Both the position numbers and the translations under genes were made by a program. The notes beneath the pieces are model-generated. The model was not told the origin of the DNA. It saw only the letters and a program-made list of their open reading frames with translations, and made no database searches. Shown in pieces: positions 4,418-62,880 of a stretch of 64,000 nucleotides of DNA. The stretch covers positions 1 to 64,000 of the forward strand of contig NZ_CCRF01000044.1 in assembly GCF_000751775.1 (NCBI RefSeq), in the 5' to 3' direction. The first letter of the stretch is position 1. Each line of letters starts with the position of its first letter. This DNA is from Caldibacillus thermoamylovorans. GTDB taxonomy: Bacteria > Bacillota > Bacilli > Bacillales > Caldibacillaceae.

Positions 4418-5515
4418 ATGGGAGTCGAATTCATTGGAAAAGGGATTGAAGGCTGGGGAGAAATGGTATCCGGTACAAAAACCCGTACGGTAGTAGCCGG
4501 TGCCTATGAAATAGCTGATAGAATTATTGGACGCAATCCTTTAGAAATTGAAAAAATTTGGCAAGAACTTTATCGGGTATTTTTCAGAGGCGGCCCAATT
4601 AACATGACGATTATTTCCGGTATTGAAATGGCGCTCTGGGATATTAAAGGAAAATACTACAATGCACCAATTTATGAGTTACTTGGCGGATCTGCCAGAG
4701 ATAGAATTAAAGTATATTCGTGGATCGGCGGGGATCGCCCGGCTGATGTAGTAAAAGATGCACAAGATCGTGTGACCCGAGGCTTTGACTCCATTAAAAT
4801 GAATGCAACTGAAGAATTACACTATATTGATTCTTTTAAAAAAATTGATGCAGTTGTAGAAAGAGTCGCTTCTTTAAGAGATACATTTGGAAACGACTTA
4901 AATATCGGTGTCGACTTCCATGGTCGTGTTCATAAACCAATGGCAAAAATTTTGGCAAAAGAATTGGAACCATATCGCCCGATGTTTCTGGAAGAAGTTG
5001 TTCTACCTGAGAACGAAGAAGGTTTTGTCGAAGTGGCAAAACATGTATCCACTCCGCTTGCAACCGGTGAGAGATTATATACACGCTGGGGCTTCAAAAA
5101 TATCCTAAACAGCGGTGTTATTGATATTATTCAACCTGATGTTGCCTTAGCGGGCGGTATTTTAGAAACTAGAAAAATTATTGCGATGGCCGAAGCGTAT
5201 GATATTGCCGCAGCACCCCATGCACCATATGGCCCAATTTCATTAGCTGCCACTTTACAAATAGATGTTTGCAGCCCGAACGTATTCATTCAAGAACAAT
5301 CACTGGGAATTCATTACAATAAAGGCTTTGACTTGCTCGACTTTGTAAAGAACAAAGAGATTTTCCAATACAAAGATGGTTATGTTGATATCCCGACAAA
5401 ACCAGGTTTGGGACTTGAAATTGATGAAGACAAGGTAAAAGAAGTATCTGCTGAAGGTCTTTATTGGACAAATCCTAACTGGAAAAACTACGATGGTACA
5501 AAAGCTGAGTGGTAA
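4418..5515 (+). CDS. D-galactonate dehydratase-like enolase-superfamily protein, N-terminally shortened
   Basis: A 365-residue protein of the mandelate racemase/muconate lactonizing branch, closest in appearance to DgoD (galactonate to 2-keto-3-deoxygalactonate, Mg-dependent). The barrel carries the expected acids and bases: VDFHGR, a FLEE segment, TGERL, the Asp of IIQPD, and APHAPYGP near the C-terminus. Family members normally start with about 20 more residues forming the first strand of the capping domain. Here the protein begins only just before GIEGWGE, and an in-frame TAA lies nine bases before the ATG, so the missing part cannot be supplied. The ribosome site is weak (AAGG). No sugar-acid kinase or aldolase genes lie nearby. 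It may be a decaying gene or make an altered enzyme. Confidence 0.75.
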   Translation: MGVEFIGKGIEGWGEMVSGTKTRTVVAGAYEIADRIIGRNPLEIEKIWQELYRVFFRGGPINMTIISGIEMALWDIKGKYYNAPIYELLGGSARDRIKVYSWIGGDRPADVVKDAQDRVTRGFDSIKMNATEELHYIDSFKKIDAVVERVASLRDTFGNDLNIGVDFHGRVHKPMAKILAKELEPYRPMFLEEVVLPENEEGFVEVAKHVSTPLATGERLYTRWGFKNILNSGVIDIIQPDVALAGGILETRKIIAMAEAYDIAAAPHAPYGPISLAATLQIDVCSPNVFIQEQSLGIHYNKGFDLLDFVKNKEIFQYKDGYVDIPTKPGLGLEIDEDKVKEVSAEGLYWTNPNWKNYDGTKAEW

Positions 5516-5555: not shown

Positions 5556-5587
5556 GAAAACGAATCCAATAAGGGTTCGTTTTCTTT
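5556..5587 (+). terminator. Terminator after the galactonate dehydratase-like gene
   Basis: A perfect 12-bp stem GAAAACGAATCC / GGGTTCGTTTTC, allowing one G-T pair, around a five-base loop, followed by TTT. The T-run merges with the start of dispersed repeat family A. Confidence 0.8.
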
Positions 5588-5744
5588 AGCTAATAGGAAA
5601 GTATAAATTTTTCAATTTCTACTTTCCTAACGCATAAGTGCACTGAAAGACTTCGGTAGCATTACCTCGCAAGCGAAAATGTTTTTTCGCTGAACTACGG
5701 CTCTGCCATCGCCTTAAGGCTCGGCAGTCGCCGAGTTTTCTTTA
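5586..5744 (+). repeat. Dispersed repeat family A, copy 1
   Basis: One of four copies of a roughly 159-bp element starting TTAGCTAATAGGAAAGTA and ending GCCGAGTTTTCTTTA. It holds three potential hairpins: GGAAAGTA/TACTTTCC, AGCGAAAA/TTTTTCGCT, and CTCGGC-AGTC-GCCGAG, the last followed by TTTTCTTT like an intrinsic terminator. It sits directly on the T-run of the preceding terminator. Confidence 0.85.
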
Positions 5745-7029: not shown

Positions 7030-7188
7030 TTAGCTAATAGGAAAGTATAAATTTTTGAATTTCTACTTTCCTAACGCATAAGTGCACTGAAAGACTTCGG
7101 TAGCATTACCTCGCAAGCGAAAATGTTTTTTCGCTGAACTACGGCTCTGCACTCACCTAAAGGCTCGGCAGTCGCCGAGTTTTCTTTA
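7030..7188 (+). repeat. Dispersed repeat family A, copy 2
   Basis: Nearly identical to copy 1 over its full length; differences lie mainly in the segment after CTCTGC. It again follows a T-rich stretch (ACATTTTTTC). Its right end overlaps the 3' end of the minus-strand membrane gene and supplies that gene's last codons and stop. Confidence 0.85.
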
Positions 7189-9690: not shown

Positions 9691-11378
9691 ATTTTAAATT
9701 TTTCAATGAGCGATTGTAACGCTTCAGCCATTTTTGTTAGCGAGTTTGCTGCTGATGTGATTTCTTCCATTGATGCCAATTGTTCCTCTGTAGCGGAAGA
9801 AACTGCCATTGTTTGAGCAGAAGATGATTCGGATATTTGAGTAATCATTTTCATTGATTGTACAATTTGTTCCGAACTTGCGGCCATTTGTTGAACAGCT
9901 GATGATACTTCTTGAATTTGGACAGTAACATTATTAATCGAGCGCTCAATTTGTGCAAAGGAATTTCCGGCAGTGTTCACAACCTCAATTCCCGACAATA
10001 CTTCCCCTTTTGCAGCATCCATTGATTGAACGGTTAAATTAGTTTCTTCCTGAATTGTAGATATTAATTGGTAAATTTGCTTTGCTGATTGTGCAGATTG
10101 TTCTGCCAGTTTCCGCACTTCTTCAGCAACGACAGCAAACCCACGGCCGTGCTCACCGGCTCTCGCTGCCTCAATCGCAGCATTTAATGCCAACAAATTT
10201 GTTTGAGAAGCAATATCGGTAATTACCGCAATGATTTGATTTATTTCTTTTGAACGTTCTCCCAGTTCACCAACTACTTTAGATAATCCATCTACGGTTT
10301 GATTAATTGTATGCATCTGCCTTACAGCTGTTTTTAATAAACGACCTCCCTCAGACGCTTTTTCTGATGCATCCATCGCACTGGAGGAAACAATTTGAGC
10401 ATTATTTGCAATTTGTTGAATTCCAACAGACATTTCGTTAATGGTTTGTGAAGTTTCTTCCACATTTTGCACTTGTTTATCCATCCCGGCGGCAACTTCC
10501 TGCGTAGATTCCGCTACATGTTCAACTGCTTTGCTCGTTTGTTCTGCACTGGCTGTTAGTTCTTCCGCCGATGCAGCCACTTGTTCAGCATTTTTTTCGA
10601 CTTTTTTTATCATTTCACGGAGACTTTTCGCCATTTGATTAAACGAATTTGCTAAATCGCCAATTTCATCCCGGTTTTTTACCTCAATATTTTCTACAGT
10701 GAGATCCCCTGATGCAATTTTTTTAGCAGATTGTGCTACGATTTTTACCGGCTTTGAAATAATGCGCCCCATATAGATGGCAATGAAAATACCAGATAAC
10801 ATAGCAATGAAACCTAAAATCAGCATTAATTGAATGATAAATTTTACTTCAGCAGTAGTATCATTATTTCCTTTGTCTAATAATTTTTGTTGATAATCTG
10901 TAAATTCTTCTATCTTTTTATCGAAATTTTCCATTATCTTTCGGCCTTCTGTAGATATCAGAGTCGTATATTCATCGGTTTTATTTTGTTCTTTTAGTTG
11001 AAATACCTTTTTACTGAATTGATAATATTCATCTTCAATTTGATTTAACTCACTTAAAAATTTCTTTGCTTTTTTGTGAGTAATGACATCACTCAAACTT
11101 TTACTCGTATTTAAATAACTTTCATGTGCCTTTTTAAAATTGTTTAAGGAAGTTTCATCTCCTAAAAGTAAATAACCGCGTAAACTAGACTGCTCTTTTT
11201 TTATTTGTATGTCCAAACTTTTTATCATAATGAGCTTGTTCGCTTTATCATTAATTAAGTCTGTATAATTTTTATCAACGGTATTGATTTGATAATAACT
11301 AACTCCTACTGTTATTCCTAATAAAAATAAAACCGCAAAAAATCCAGCAAACAGTTTTTTTCCAATTGTCATCTTCAT
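9687..11378 (-). CDS. Methyl-accepting chemotaxis protein (YvaQ-like)
   Basis: A 563-residue transmembrane chemoreceptor. An N-terminal membrane helix is followed by a helical extracellular domain of about 150 residues, a second helix near 185-205, then HAMP. The cytoplasmic signalling coiled coil contains the hairpin tip with [13 protein letters not shown] and the [20 protein letters not shown] core that binds CheA/CheW. The sensor segment resembles a four-helix (4HB/CHASE3) domain, so the ligand is unknown. The start is placed at 11378, where AAAGGA has nine-base spacing; the TTG at 11384 is too close. No other chemotaxis genes are nearby. Confidence 0.9.
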
Positions 11379-34816: not shown

Positions 34817-34842
34817 CCACCTTTCAGACAGGTGGTTTTTTT
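34817..34842 (+). terminator. Terminator adjoining repeat A copy 3
   Basis: CCACCT / AGGTGG stem followed by seven T. The T-run is continuous with the left end of dispersed repeat A. Confidence 0.8.
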
Positions 34843-35056
34843 AGCTAATAGGAAAGTAAAAATTTTTCAATTTCTACTTTCCTAACGCATAAGTGCACAA
34901 GGAAAGCTTCGCGGGAATACATCGCAGCCGAAAAAATTTTATATTTTTTCGGTGACTAGAGAAGCTTCGGTAGCATTACCTCGCAAGCGAAAAAATTTTT
35001 TTTGCTGACTACGAATTTGCCCTCACCTAAAGGATCGGACACCCAAGTTTTCCTTA
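34841..35056 (+). repeat. Dispersed repeat family A, copy 3 (expanded)
   Basis: It starts like the other copies (TTAGCTAATAGGAAAGTA) but is about 57 bp longer. The central hairpin module occurs twice: GGAAAGCTTCGCGGGAATAC then CGCAGCCGAAAAAAT/ATTTTTTCGG, and again GCTTCGGTAGCATTACC then CGCAAGCGAAAA. The right-hand terminator-like stem has decayed (GGATCGGACACCCAAG). Confidence 0.8.
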
Positions 35057-60501: not shown

Positions 60502-60542
60502 AAAAAAGGTATGGAATCAATAACGATTCCATACCTTTTTTT
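60502..60542. terminator. Terminator of clpE
   Basis: AAAAAAGGTATGGAATC / GATTCCATACCTTTTTT stem with six-base loop, at the clpE stop codon. T-runs on both strands. Confidence 0.92.
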
Positions 60543-62682
60543 ACTCAGCATTTATAACGATTTTGCCATTTTCAAGTGTTGCCTTCAAATGGTGTACGTC
60601 CGGTTCATCGAGAATGAAATCGGCAATTTTATCTTCCAATTGCTCTTGAATGGTCCGACGTAATGGCCGTGCACCGAAAGAAGGGTTGTAGCCAAGGTCA
60701 ACCAGTTTTTCTTTCACTTCCTGACTAACAGTAATTGTTTTATTATCTTCTTTTAATTGATTTACAACTTCAGCTAACATTAAATCGACAATTTGTAACA
60801 AATCTTCTTTTGATAATGAATGGAATCGAACAATGGAATCAAACCGATTTAGAAATTCCGGTTTGAAGTAATCACGTAATTGTTCAACTACTGATGATTC
60901 ATCCGTTTGATCGGATATACCGAAACCGACGCGAATATCCTTTATATGTTGACCTGCATTACTTGTCATAATAATAACCGTGTTATTAAAGCTTACGGTT
61001 CTACCTTGGCTGTCTGTTAAACGCCCGTCATCCAAAATTTGCAGGAACATGTGTAAAACATCCGGATGTGCTTTTTCGATTTCATCCAATAATATTAAGC
61101 TATACGGATTTCTCCGGACTTTTTCCGTTAATTGACCTGCTTCTTCATGACCAACATAGCCAGGCGGTGAACCGATTAATTTAGAGACGCTGTGTTTTTC
61201 CATATATTCACTCATGTCCAAGCGAATCATTGCGTCTTTTGTACCAAATAATTCTTCGGCAAGGGTTTTGGCCAATTCAGTTTTCCCAACACCGGTAGGA
61301 CCGATAAAGAGGAACGAACCGATTGGACGGTTTTTTGCTTTTAATCCGGCCCGACTGCGGCGAATGGCTTTAGCTACTTGACGAACCGCATCGGCCTGAC
61401 CAATTACTTTTGCAGCTAAGTTTTCTTCAATATGTTTTAATTTTTGTTGTTCATCGGCTTGGATTTTGCCAACCGGGATACCGGTTTTTTCCTCAACAAT
61501 TTGTTGAATCAAATCAACATTGATAATTGGTGTAGCTGCATCTTTTGCTTGGCTGCCCTGATTTTCCAGTGTTTGTTCTTCATCACGTAATTTTGCAGCC
61601 AGTTCATAGTTTTCAGCTTGTAGGGCTTGTTGTTTTTCTTCGGCAATTTGTTTTAAGCGTTCTTCAATATAAGCCGGTGTTAATGTTTTTGATTCGAGAT
61701 TCAATTTAGAACCGGCTTCGTCAAGTAAGTCAATCGCTTTGTCCGGTAAGTAGCGGTCTTGAATATAGCGATGAGACAAGTTGACACAAGCACGAACGGC
61801 TTCGTCAGAGTATTTTACTTGATGATATTCTTCATACTTCGGTTTCAATCCCATCAATATTGTAATTGTTTCATCGACTGAAGGTTCATGAACTTGAACC
61901 GGTTGAAAACGCCGTTCCAAAGCTGCATCTTTTTCAATTTGACGATACTCTTTCAAGGTTGTTGCACCAATTAATTGCAGTTCACCTCTGGAAAGAGCTG
62001 GTTTTAAAATATTTCCTGCATCCATGGAACCTTCCGCAGAACCGGCACCGACAATCAAATGAATTTCGTCGATAAACAGAATCACTTCCGGTCGATTTTG
62101 TACTTCGGCAATTAATTGTTTCATTCGTTCTTCAAATTGTCCGCGTATACCGGTGTTGGCAACGAGGGATGCGACATCGAGCAGGTAAACTTGTTTTCCC
62201 CGAAGTTTCATCGGAACATCGCCTGCAACAATTTTTAAGGCTAAACCTTCTACAACTGCTGTTTTACCAACGCCAGGTTCTCCGATTAACACCGGGTTAT
62301 TTTTGTTACGACGGTTCAAAATTTCAATTACTTTTTTAATTTCTTCATCCCGACCAATAACCGGGTCAATTTTGCCATTTTCTGCCTCAAGATTTAAGTT
62401 TTTTCCATATTGATCAAGGAAGCCACCACGACCGCCGGATGTTTGCCGAGTTAGCGTTTTTACCCCATTTTGACCATCAATTGGGCTGCCAAACGGAACA
62501 AAACCTCCAAACATTTGTGAAAACGGGTTTGCATTTCCCATGAAATTTTTCAAAGAAGAATTTAATTTTTCTTGTTCCTCTTGATAGCATTTTTGACATA
62601 AAGCATATTCAGTTTGTTTTCCATTTACGTAAAATTGTAAATGAATGTTTGCCTCATTTTTATGACATTTTTGACATAACAT
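60541..62682 (-). CDS. clpE: ATP-dependent Clp protease ATPase subunit ClpE
   Basis: A 713-residue Hsp100 chaperone that feeds unfolded proteins to ClpP. The diagnostic N-terminal zinc finger uses Cys3, 6, 29 and 32. Two AAA+ modules have GEPGVGKTA and GPTGVGKTE, with a UVR-type linker (about residues 335-370) between them. Length fits ClpE (699 in Bacillus subtilis). ATG follows AAGGAGGTTTGCACG. Transcription is expected from the CtsR-controlled promoter at 62937-62965, giving a leader of about 240 bases that contains a whole copy of repeat A. Confidence 0.95.
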
Positions 62683-62721: not shown

Positions 62722-62880
62722 TTAGCTAATAGGAAAGTATAAATTTTTCAATTTCTACTTTCCTAACGCATAAGTGCACTGAAAGACTTCGGTAGCATTA
62801 CCTCGCAAGCGAAAATGTTTTTTCGCTGAACTACGGCTCTGCTCTCACCTAAAGGCTCGGCAGTCGCCGAGTTTTCTTTA
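62722..62880 (+). repeat. Dispersed repeat family A, copy 4, in the clpE leader
   Basis: Nearly identical to copies 1 and 2. It lies between the CtsR-controlled promoter and the clpE start codon, in the orientation opposite to clpE, so the clpE mRNA carries its reverse complement. Confidence 0.88.

Follow-up and report, generated by a model that had tools for sequence, protein, structure and literature searches.

Among the described systems closest to the repeat analysed here are the BOX elements of Streptococcus pneumoniae, which the accessible portion of one account depicts as intergenic, high-copy sequences, non-coding in their basic form, with a head, a variable number of middle modules, a tail and predicted stem-loops, and for which terminal inverted repeats and target-site duplication are reported (PMC3049150). 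The same partial source describes SPRITE, a terminator-like repeat of S. pneumoniae that is enriched at gene ends and consists of a single long stem and a T-rich tract, without modules. The bcr1 or group A repeats, restricted to the Bacillus cereus group, are in the available text of three papers intergenic sequences of ~150 bp with features of mobility, a TTTA(T) end and no known enzyme (PMC6542083, PMC3446304, PMC3733652). REP and CGTC sequences are hairpin repeats, the CGTC class, like the present element, seemingly being without a dedicated transposase in the portion of the source at hand (PMC3733652), and bacterial-C group II introns are described, again in accessible excerpts, as entering immediately after rho-independent terminators (PMC8919778). 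Finally, a table of stem-loop families includes entries for short repeats from B. halodurans and B. anthracis, one of which could, going by the table entry alone within the available text, be a relative of the present element (PMC2267715).

The window considered here, i.e. the whole 64,000-nucleotide stretch of Caldibacillus thermoamylovorans DNA that was analysed, holds four copies of a repeat that is about 105-215 bp long across the family. Compared by description, it shares with BOX the plan of a head, a variable number of middle modules and a tail, as well as predicted stem-loops, an intergenic location and a high copy number, but its ends are only loosely inverted, it shows no evident target-site duplication, has a T-tract as its left target, and ends in a terminator-like tail. 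Whereas SPRITE is non-modular and the bcr repeats are confined to one species group, the present repeat is modular, and its tail occurs in 56 of 116 sampled Bacillales genera. Unlike REP and CGTC repeats, it bears neither a GTAG nor a CGTC end tag and its presence does not track that of RAYT genes; unlike bacterial-C introns, it is short, carries no maturase gene, and has a T-tract as the constant part of its target. No earlier description of the repeat family was found in the literature searched, a coverage outside which many subscription papers, the main bcr1 papers included, fall. We consider it probable that the repeat is a non-autonomous modular element, inserted by an enzyme in one orientation 3' of a T-tract without duplication of the target, and that its old copies are decaying.

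Modular anatomy and distribution of the repeat family

The first-pass annotation had placed four copies at 5586, 7030, 34841 and 62722, and blastn within the window recovers them at these places with matches far beyond chance. Its claim that copies 1, 2 and 4 are nearly identical over their full length (about 97% over 159 bp) also stands: relative to copy 1, copy 4 is 97.5% identical (E 5e-75) and copy 2 96.9% (E 2e-73). Including a TTA flank, these three copies span 5586-5744, 7030-7188 and 62722-62880, and copy 3 spans 34841-35056. The common ends were described correctly in part. On the right, AGTTTTCTTTA is nearly fixed, but copy 3 terminates in ACCCAAGTTTTCCTTA and not GCCGAGTTTTCTTTA; on the left, the initial TTA belongs to the flank, being TCA, TCG, TAA or TTT in other copies, and the element itself begins with GCTAAT. 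Similarly, of the three stems proposed, the terminator-like last one is found in most folded copies as a tail hairpin followed by TTTTCTTT, but copy 3 adds a second middle module. Coding capacity was assessed from a mechanical ORF list alone, and on that list copies 2 and 3 are touched by short ORFs.

All four copies lie on the forward strand. Copy 1 comprises a head hairpin with ACGCATAAGTGC (5589-5641), a middle module with the hairpin GCGAAAA..TTTTCGC (5642-5692), and a tail with a terminator-like hairpin and the end AGTTTTCTTTA (5693-5744). It follows a predicted host intrinsic terminator (CGAATCC..GGGTTCG) with the T-tract TTTTCTTTA at 5561-5588, its putative landing site, behind an ORF at 4418-5515, and is not among the copies that lack a hairpin in front. 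Copy 3 (34844-35056) is 213 bp long, with its head at 34844-34896, two middle modules at 34897-34954 and 34955-35007, and a diverged right end in the tail at 35008-35056. Its alignment to copy 1 is split into two segments (85% and 81%), and another predicted host terminator (CCACCT..AGGTGG) with its T-tract precedes it at 34817-34843. Copy 2 (7033-7188; head 7033-7085, middle 7086-7136, tail 7137-7188) and copy 4 (62725-62880; head 62725-62777, middle 62778-62828, tail 62829-62880) each follow a T-rich stretch without a terminator hairpin; copy 4 lies on the strand opposite a Clp-type ATPase ORF (60541-62682), 42 bp upstream of its start. Elsewhere in the window, positions 10075-10257, part of a 565-aa ORF, have many matches at 72-78% in a second species of the genus (G001), probably reflecting a paralogous gene family.

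Across the family, a common head, formed by the hairpin TAGGAAAGTA..TACTTTCCTA and the ACGCATAAGTGC that follows it, is joined to zero, one or two middle modules, each a second hairpin unit, and to a tail that starts at AACTACGGCTCTG. By approximate length classes, the 54 hits above 60 bits in the genome of the window include 22 without a middle module, 24 with one and six with two, the remaining two being cut or otherwise composed. The ends of the element are, by inspection, only loosely inverted (TAGGAAAGT versus TAAAGAAAACT). The genome of the window also has a second head type (TACGTTAAGAAAGTATAAATTTCCAGC..), which carries the same tail, with a middle module at three loci (L379, L380, L382) and without one at most of the other loci fetched for comparison, which indicates that the modules can be exchanged. 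Some copies in other genera have as their head another hairpin whose arms match (TCAGAAAGT..ACTTTCTGA; GCAGATAAGAAAGT..ACTTTCTTATCTGC). Of 181 elements scanned for a head hairpin, 120 contain a hairpin of -6 kcal/mol or better, which in some cases is not the head. Three Cytobacillus loci (L101, L114, L120) hold longer composites in which the head and the tail are separated by extra types of module (GACGGACAGGA.., GCGAATGCCACAGGA..). At three further loci (L004, L025, L036), TAAGAAAG(TATA), resembling the start of the second head type, occurs within 15 bp to the right of the copy; from its sequence this may be a decayed tandem copy.

Far more than four copies exist. In the genome of the window (3.7 Mb in 106 contigs), blast gave 63 matches, many of them copy fragments, and R1, a covariance model based on an alignment of 19 one-module copies from two species, gave at least 82 matches at E <= 1e-3 with 150 of 2,565 candidates scored. 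The second species of the genus (G001) has at least 150 R1 matches, and five of eight genomes of the family have no match to the full model. Among 299 genomes drawn from the order Bacillales, the full model matches 17 and the tail model R2 matches 108; per-genome counts are lower bounds once they reach 10 (full model, 299 genomes), 19 (tail model) or 150 (own family). The exact tail occurs, among the matches listed, in Cytobacillus, Scopulibacillus, Ectobacillus, Neobacillus, Gracilibacillus, Evansella, Pseudalkalibacillus and Chengkuizengella. Three Ectobacillus and Pseudalkalibacillus loci (L102, L121, L146) show three to five detected tails per 8 kb, some of them probably spurious. Of 232 head matches, 37 have no tail within 450 bp; those listed resemble degenerate copies, and three have a tail farther on. 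The loci fetched, 2.3 Mb in all, revealed no longer relative with coding capacity, and a search of phages gave no match.

We also weighed whether the repeat is a bcr1-type (group A) repeat of the B. cereus group that has spread more widely than thought. The two are of similar size, and bcr1 has a TTTAT motif in the accessible part of its description (PMC6542083). The present element has a nearly fixed TTTA at its right end, with T as the next base in 59% of the copies detected, and on its left a T-tract followed by A or G. However, bcr1 is described in the same partial source as residing on B. cereus-group plasmids (PMC6542083), whereas two members of the present family, searched against 72,556 plasmids, matched no Bacillus record and only a single one, named Arthrobacter citreus, by the tail alone. 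By this indirect comparison a bcr1 identity appears quite unlikely.

Oriented position behind T-tracts

Among 53 copies from the genus, the left flank shows T at six successive positions (frequencies 0.70-0.89), then A (0.62) or G (0.25), then the GCTAAT of the element. At least five T in the six left-flank positions are found in 38 of these 53 copies, versus 5,074 of 150,634 intergenic 6-mers (3.4%). For a wider survey, strict-motif detection yielded 182 elements, window copy 3 excluded, a set that includes one core at L105 two times and a handful of detections (e.g. at L119) that look spurious. Two lay too close to a locus end, leaving 180 scored copies, of which 127 come from other genera, mostly from stretches picked by an exact tail match (at least 112 stretches).

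Of the 180 copies, 112 have a hairpin of -8 kcal/mol or better in front of them, versus 39 of 360 T-rich intergenic control positions (360 of 585 positions folded, all in other genera). The direction of the upstream gene separates the two features of the flank. The T-tract is present in 88 of 92 copies co-directional with that gene and in 33 of 35 otherwise, whereas the hairpin is present in 73 of 92 and only nine of 35, respectively. A terminator hairpin as a required target was therefore rejected, since it drops away where the upstream gene is reversed while the T-tract stays. We read these flanking sequences as suggesting that T-tracts are the target and that terminators are their chief source; 14 of the 180 copies have no T-tract by the criterion used. 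Every intrinsic terminator finishes with a T-tract and lies at a gene end, where insertion is tolerated, which would account for most copies lying behind terminators.

Orientation was further assessed on the largest contig of the second species (G001:C14), where 67 of 77 copies, those among the matches listed, follow the replichore, versus 752 of 1,644 intergenic T-tracts and 268 of 327 genes. The replichore switch was set at 2.1 Mb after the copies had been viewed, though a reversal in the sign of the GC skew also falls between 1.94 and 2.22 Mb. Because fewer than half of the intergenic T-tracts follow the replichore, T-tract supply does not explain the bias; genes follow it almost as strongly as the copies do, so orientation may reflect transcription or selection. 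With neighbours scored for 31 of the 77 copies, four run the wrong way, three of which follow the upstream gene.

In the mechanism that we propose, an enzyme acting in trans would place the element immediately 3' of a T-tract (about TTTTTT[A/G]|) and in a single orientation, and insertion would leave no target-site duplication. The hairpin and T-tract at the end of the element itself would constitute a new landing site, so that tandem copies can form. One such tandem was observed in Scopulibacillus (L118), where two copies lie head to tail, the second starting exactly after the TTTTCTTTA of the first.

Empty sites, decay and the question of an RNA function

Two insertions could be dated against uninterrupted sites in sister species, both in a genus other than that of the window, whose own sister species is too diverged for this comparison, which the first-pass annotation had proposed. 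In one genome (G230, from a genus represented by 13 species), an element lies between the terminator of a purine riboswitch (68.8 bits) and the following gene (L096:1426-1692), a position directly behind the riboswitch terminator at which it adds a second terminator-like hairpin. The site is uninterrupted in eight sister species and holds a remnant in a ninth (G028), the more diverged G300, G295 and G207 having been left out of the alignment, and no base is duplicated at the junction. The short remnant in G028 (ACTTTCAAT..AACGAGGTTTCTTTA; L257, around 2150) lies at the same riboswitch terminator, and this site was thus probably hit twice or has lost a copy. The second insertion (G252) is absent from nine sisters and shows no evident duplication, the bases to the right of the junction having diverged between species. 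The suggestion that the repeat is a MITE without classical terminal repeats, or a bcr-type repeat, therefore holds in kind, in that there are empty sites, dozens of copies, a wide spread among genera and some two-sided stem changes, and neither outcome that the first-pass annotation had named as refuting came about. A target-site duplication, as expected of a classical MITE of a DDE transposon, is not evident at either of the two insertions. With no duplication seen and a fixed orientation, an ordinary DDE transposase is a poor candidate.

Shared copies bear on a different reading, in which the repeat is a conserved small-RNA or 3'-UTR module kept as a transcribed terminator, stabiliser or sRNA. 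The tail hairpin is strong and followed by a T-run, and copies often lie co-directionally behind genes. Some stem changes are two-sided: among 19 one-module copies, 20 cells are changed on both sides versus 8.7 in shuffled alignments (none of 500 shuffles as high), and among 53 diverse tails there are 30 such cells versus 11.9 (0 of 500), the structures tested being derived from the very alignments on which they were scored. Most of the remaining measures of covariation are weak. In the one-module copies, seven pairs show two-sided change versus 4.7 in shuffles (reached by 37 of 500), further pair types number 21 versus 20.2 (211 of 500), and the RNAalifold covariation term of 0.16 is unfavourable. 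In the diverse tails, four pairs show two-sided change versus 2.6 (52 of 500) and further types number 15 versus 11.4 (1 of 500). The head stem is nearly invariant within the genus. An Rfam search of the window at gathering score returned two tRNAs only and no family for the repeat copies, and among five loci searched against Rfam at E <= 1 the sole hit above gathering score was the purine riboswitch adjoining the element at L096.

The history of shared copies weighs further against a conserved RNA. At a site common to five species, the element is 38-80% identical over all columns and the 200-bp flanks, which are partly coding, 85-98.5%; at a site common to three species, the corresponding values are 70-81% and 95.5-98.5%. 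Structure is not kept in the shared copies at these two loci, and several old shared copies no longer have a terminator stem. The proposal that the whole RNA structure is under selection, or that the repeat is a small-RNA module, is thus not supported. Since shared old copies outpace their flanks in decay, recent spread is the likelier reason why copies 1, 2 and 4 are nearly identical. As far as these alignments indicate, the pattern is more that of a decaying parasite than of an RNA under conservation, and we regard the RNA-module reading as highly improbable.

Candidate movers and implications

For a non-autonomous element inserted behind T-tracts, the mover was sought among Y1 transposases, REP-associated tyrosine transposases (RAYT) and group II reverse transcriptases, each of which is absent or broken in some high-copy genomes. 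The latter are 38 genomes with at least 10 matches, counted by eye, in the 299-genome tail search. RAYT (NF047646) is missing from 12 of these 38 and from the genome of the window; its presence in 26 of 38, versus 186 of 299 overall, shows no association with the element, and it was rejected as a general mover. The second species of the genus (G001) encodes a single intact RAYT (L088:1465-2061; NF047646, 83.4 bits) that adjoins a DDE-transposase-like ORF. Beside it there is no head or middle motif and one weak tail-like match. Y1 and reverse transcriptases were searched for in 13 chosen genomes, comprising the 12 without RAYT and G001. Y1 has no match in four of them (G066, G130, G230, G233) and survives in the genome of the window as a fragment of 47 positions with a stop, and was likewise set aside as a general mover. 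Around the Y1 loci L088-L090, head and middle motifs were absent apart from one weak head-like match in L090.

These results bear on the view that a Y1 transposase or a RAYT mobilises the repeat, which would then be a miniature derivative of an IS200/IS605-type element or a REP-like sequence. Like such derivatives (PATEs), the element has hairpins near both ends, enters 3' of a short fixed target in a fixed orientation, and leaves no evident duplication. The preferred T-tract lies on the strand read along the fork, and one genome rich in copies holds the intact RAYT described above. Against this, no related Y1 element with the same ends was found, the genome of the window having several near-identical copies yet only the stopped Y1 fragment, and G230, host of one of the dated insertions, has no Y1 match. 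Together with the distribution and surroundings of RAYT, these points make such an origin unlikely.

Reverse transcriptase domains (RVT_1) are present in all 13 chosen genomes, a set without a low-copy baseline. Fourteen loci were fetched and six proteins classified. Three of the six, from G230, G182 and G252, proved to be group II maturases, whereas that of G292 and the two in the genome of the window (L334:112-1710, L335:1230-2783) are of defence types, the latter two matching the PADLOC models RT_UG30 (718 bits) and Drt8 (539 bits). A group II reverse transcriptase was for this reason rejected as a general mover. A recombinase-like ORF adjoins the first of the two loci (L334). The maturases, and the niche of bacterial-C introns behind terminators, lend something to the idea of a retro-element-like spread through a group II intron reverse transcriptase with bacterial-C targeting. 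However, the defence-type enzymes, the lack of a baseline for the RVT_1 count, and a target whose constant part is the T-tract and not the hairpin all tell against it, and the ends of the element presumably differ from those of group II introns. We judge this route very unlikely.

Returning to enzymatic insertion 3' of a T-tract, our best guess is that the mover would be either a site-specific recombinase or an enzyme that recognises the terminal hairpins in single-stranded DNA. More tentatively, the repeat may belong to an undescribed superfamily that extends across the order Bacillales, modular and terminator-ended, landing behind T-tracts, chiefly the U-tracts of terminators, without duplication through an unrecognised transposase, and making a new landing site with each insertion; we hold this broader reading to be plausible, if somewhat short of even. 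For small intergenic repeats of Gram-positive bacteria such as BOX and bcr1, the accessible portions of the literature covered report no proven mover. The present family is spread widely enough to be studied by comparative genomics, its boundaries are exact, its target is defined and empty sites are available, and the mover of such repeats thereby becomes directly testable. The element can land between a riboswitch and its gene, as at L096, and these findings show that a parasite can settle behind terminators, adding a second.
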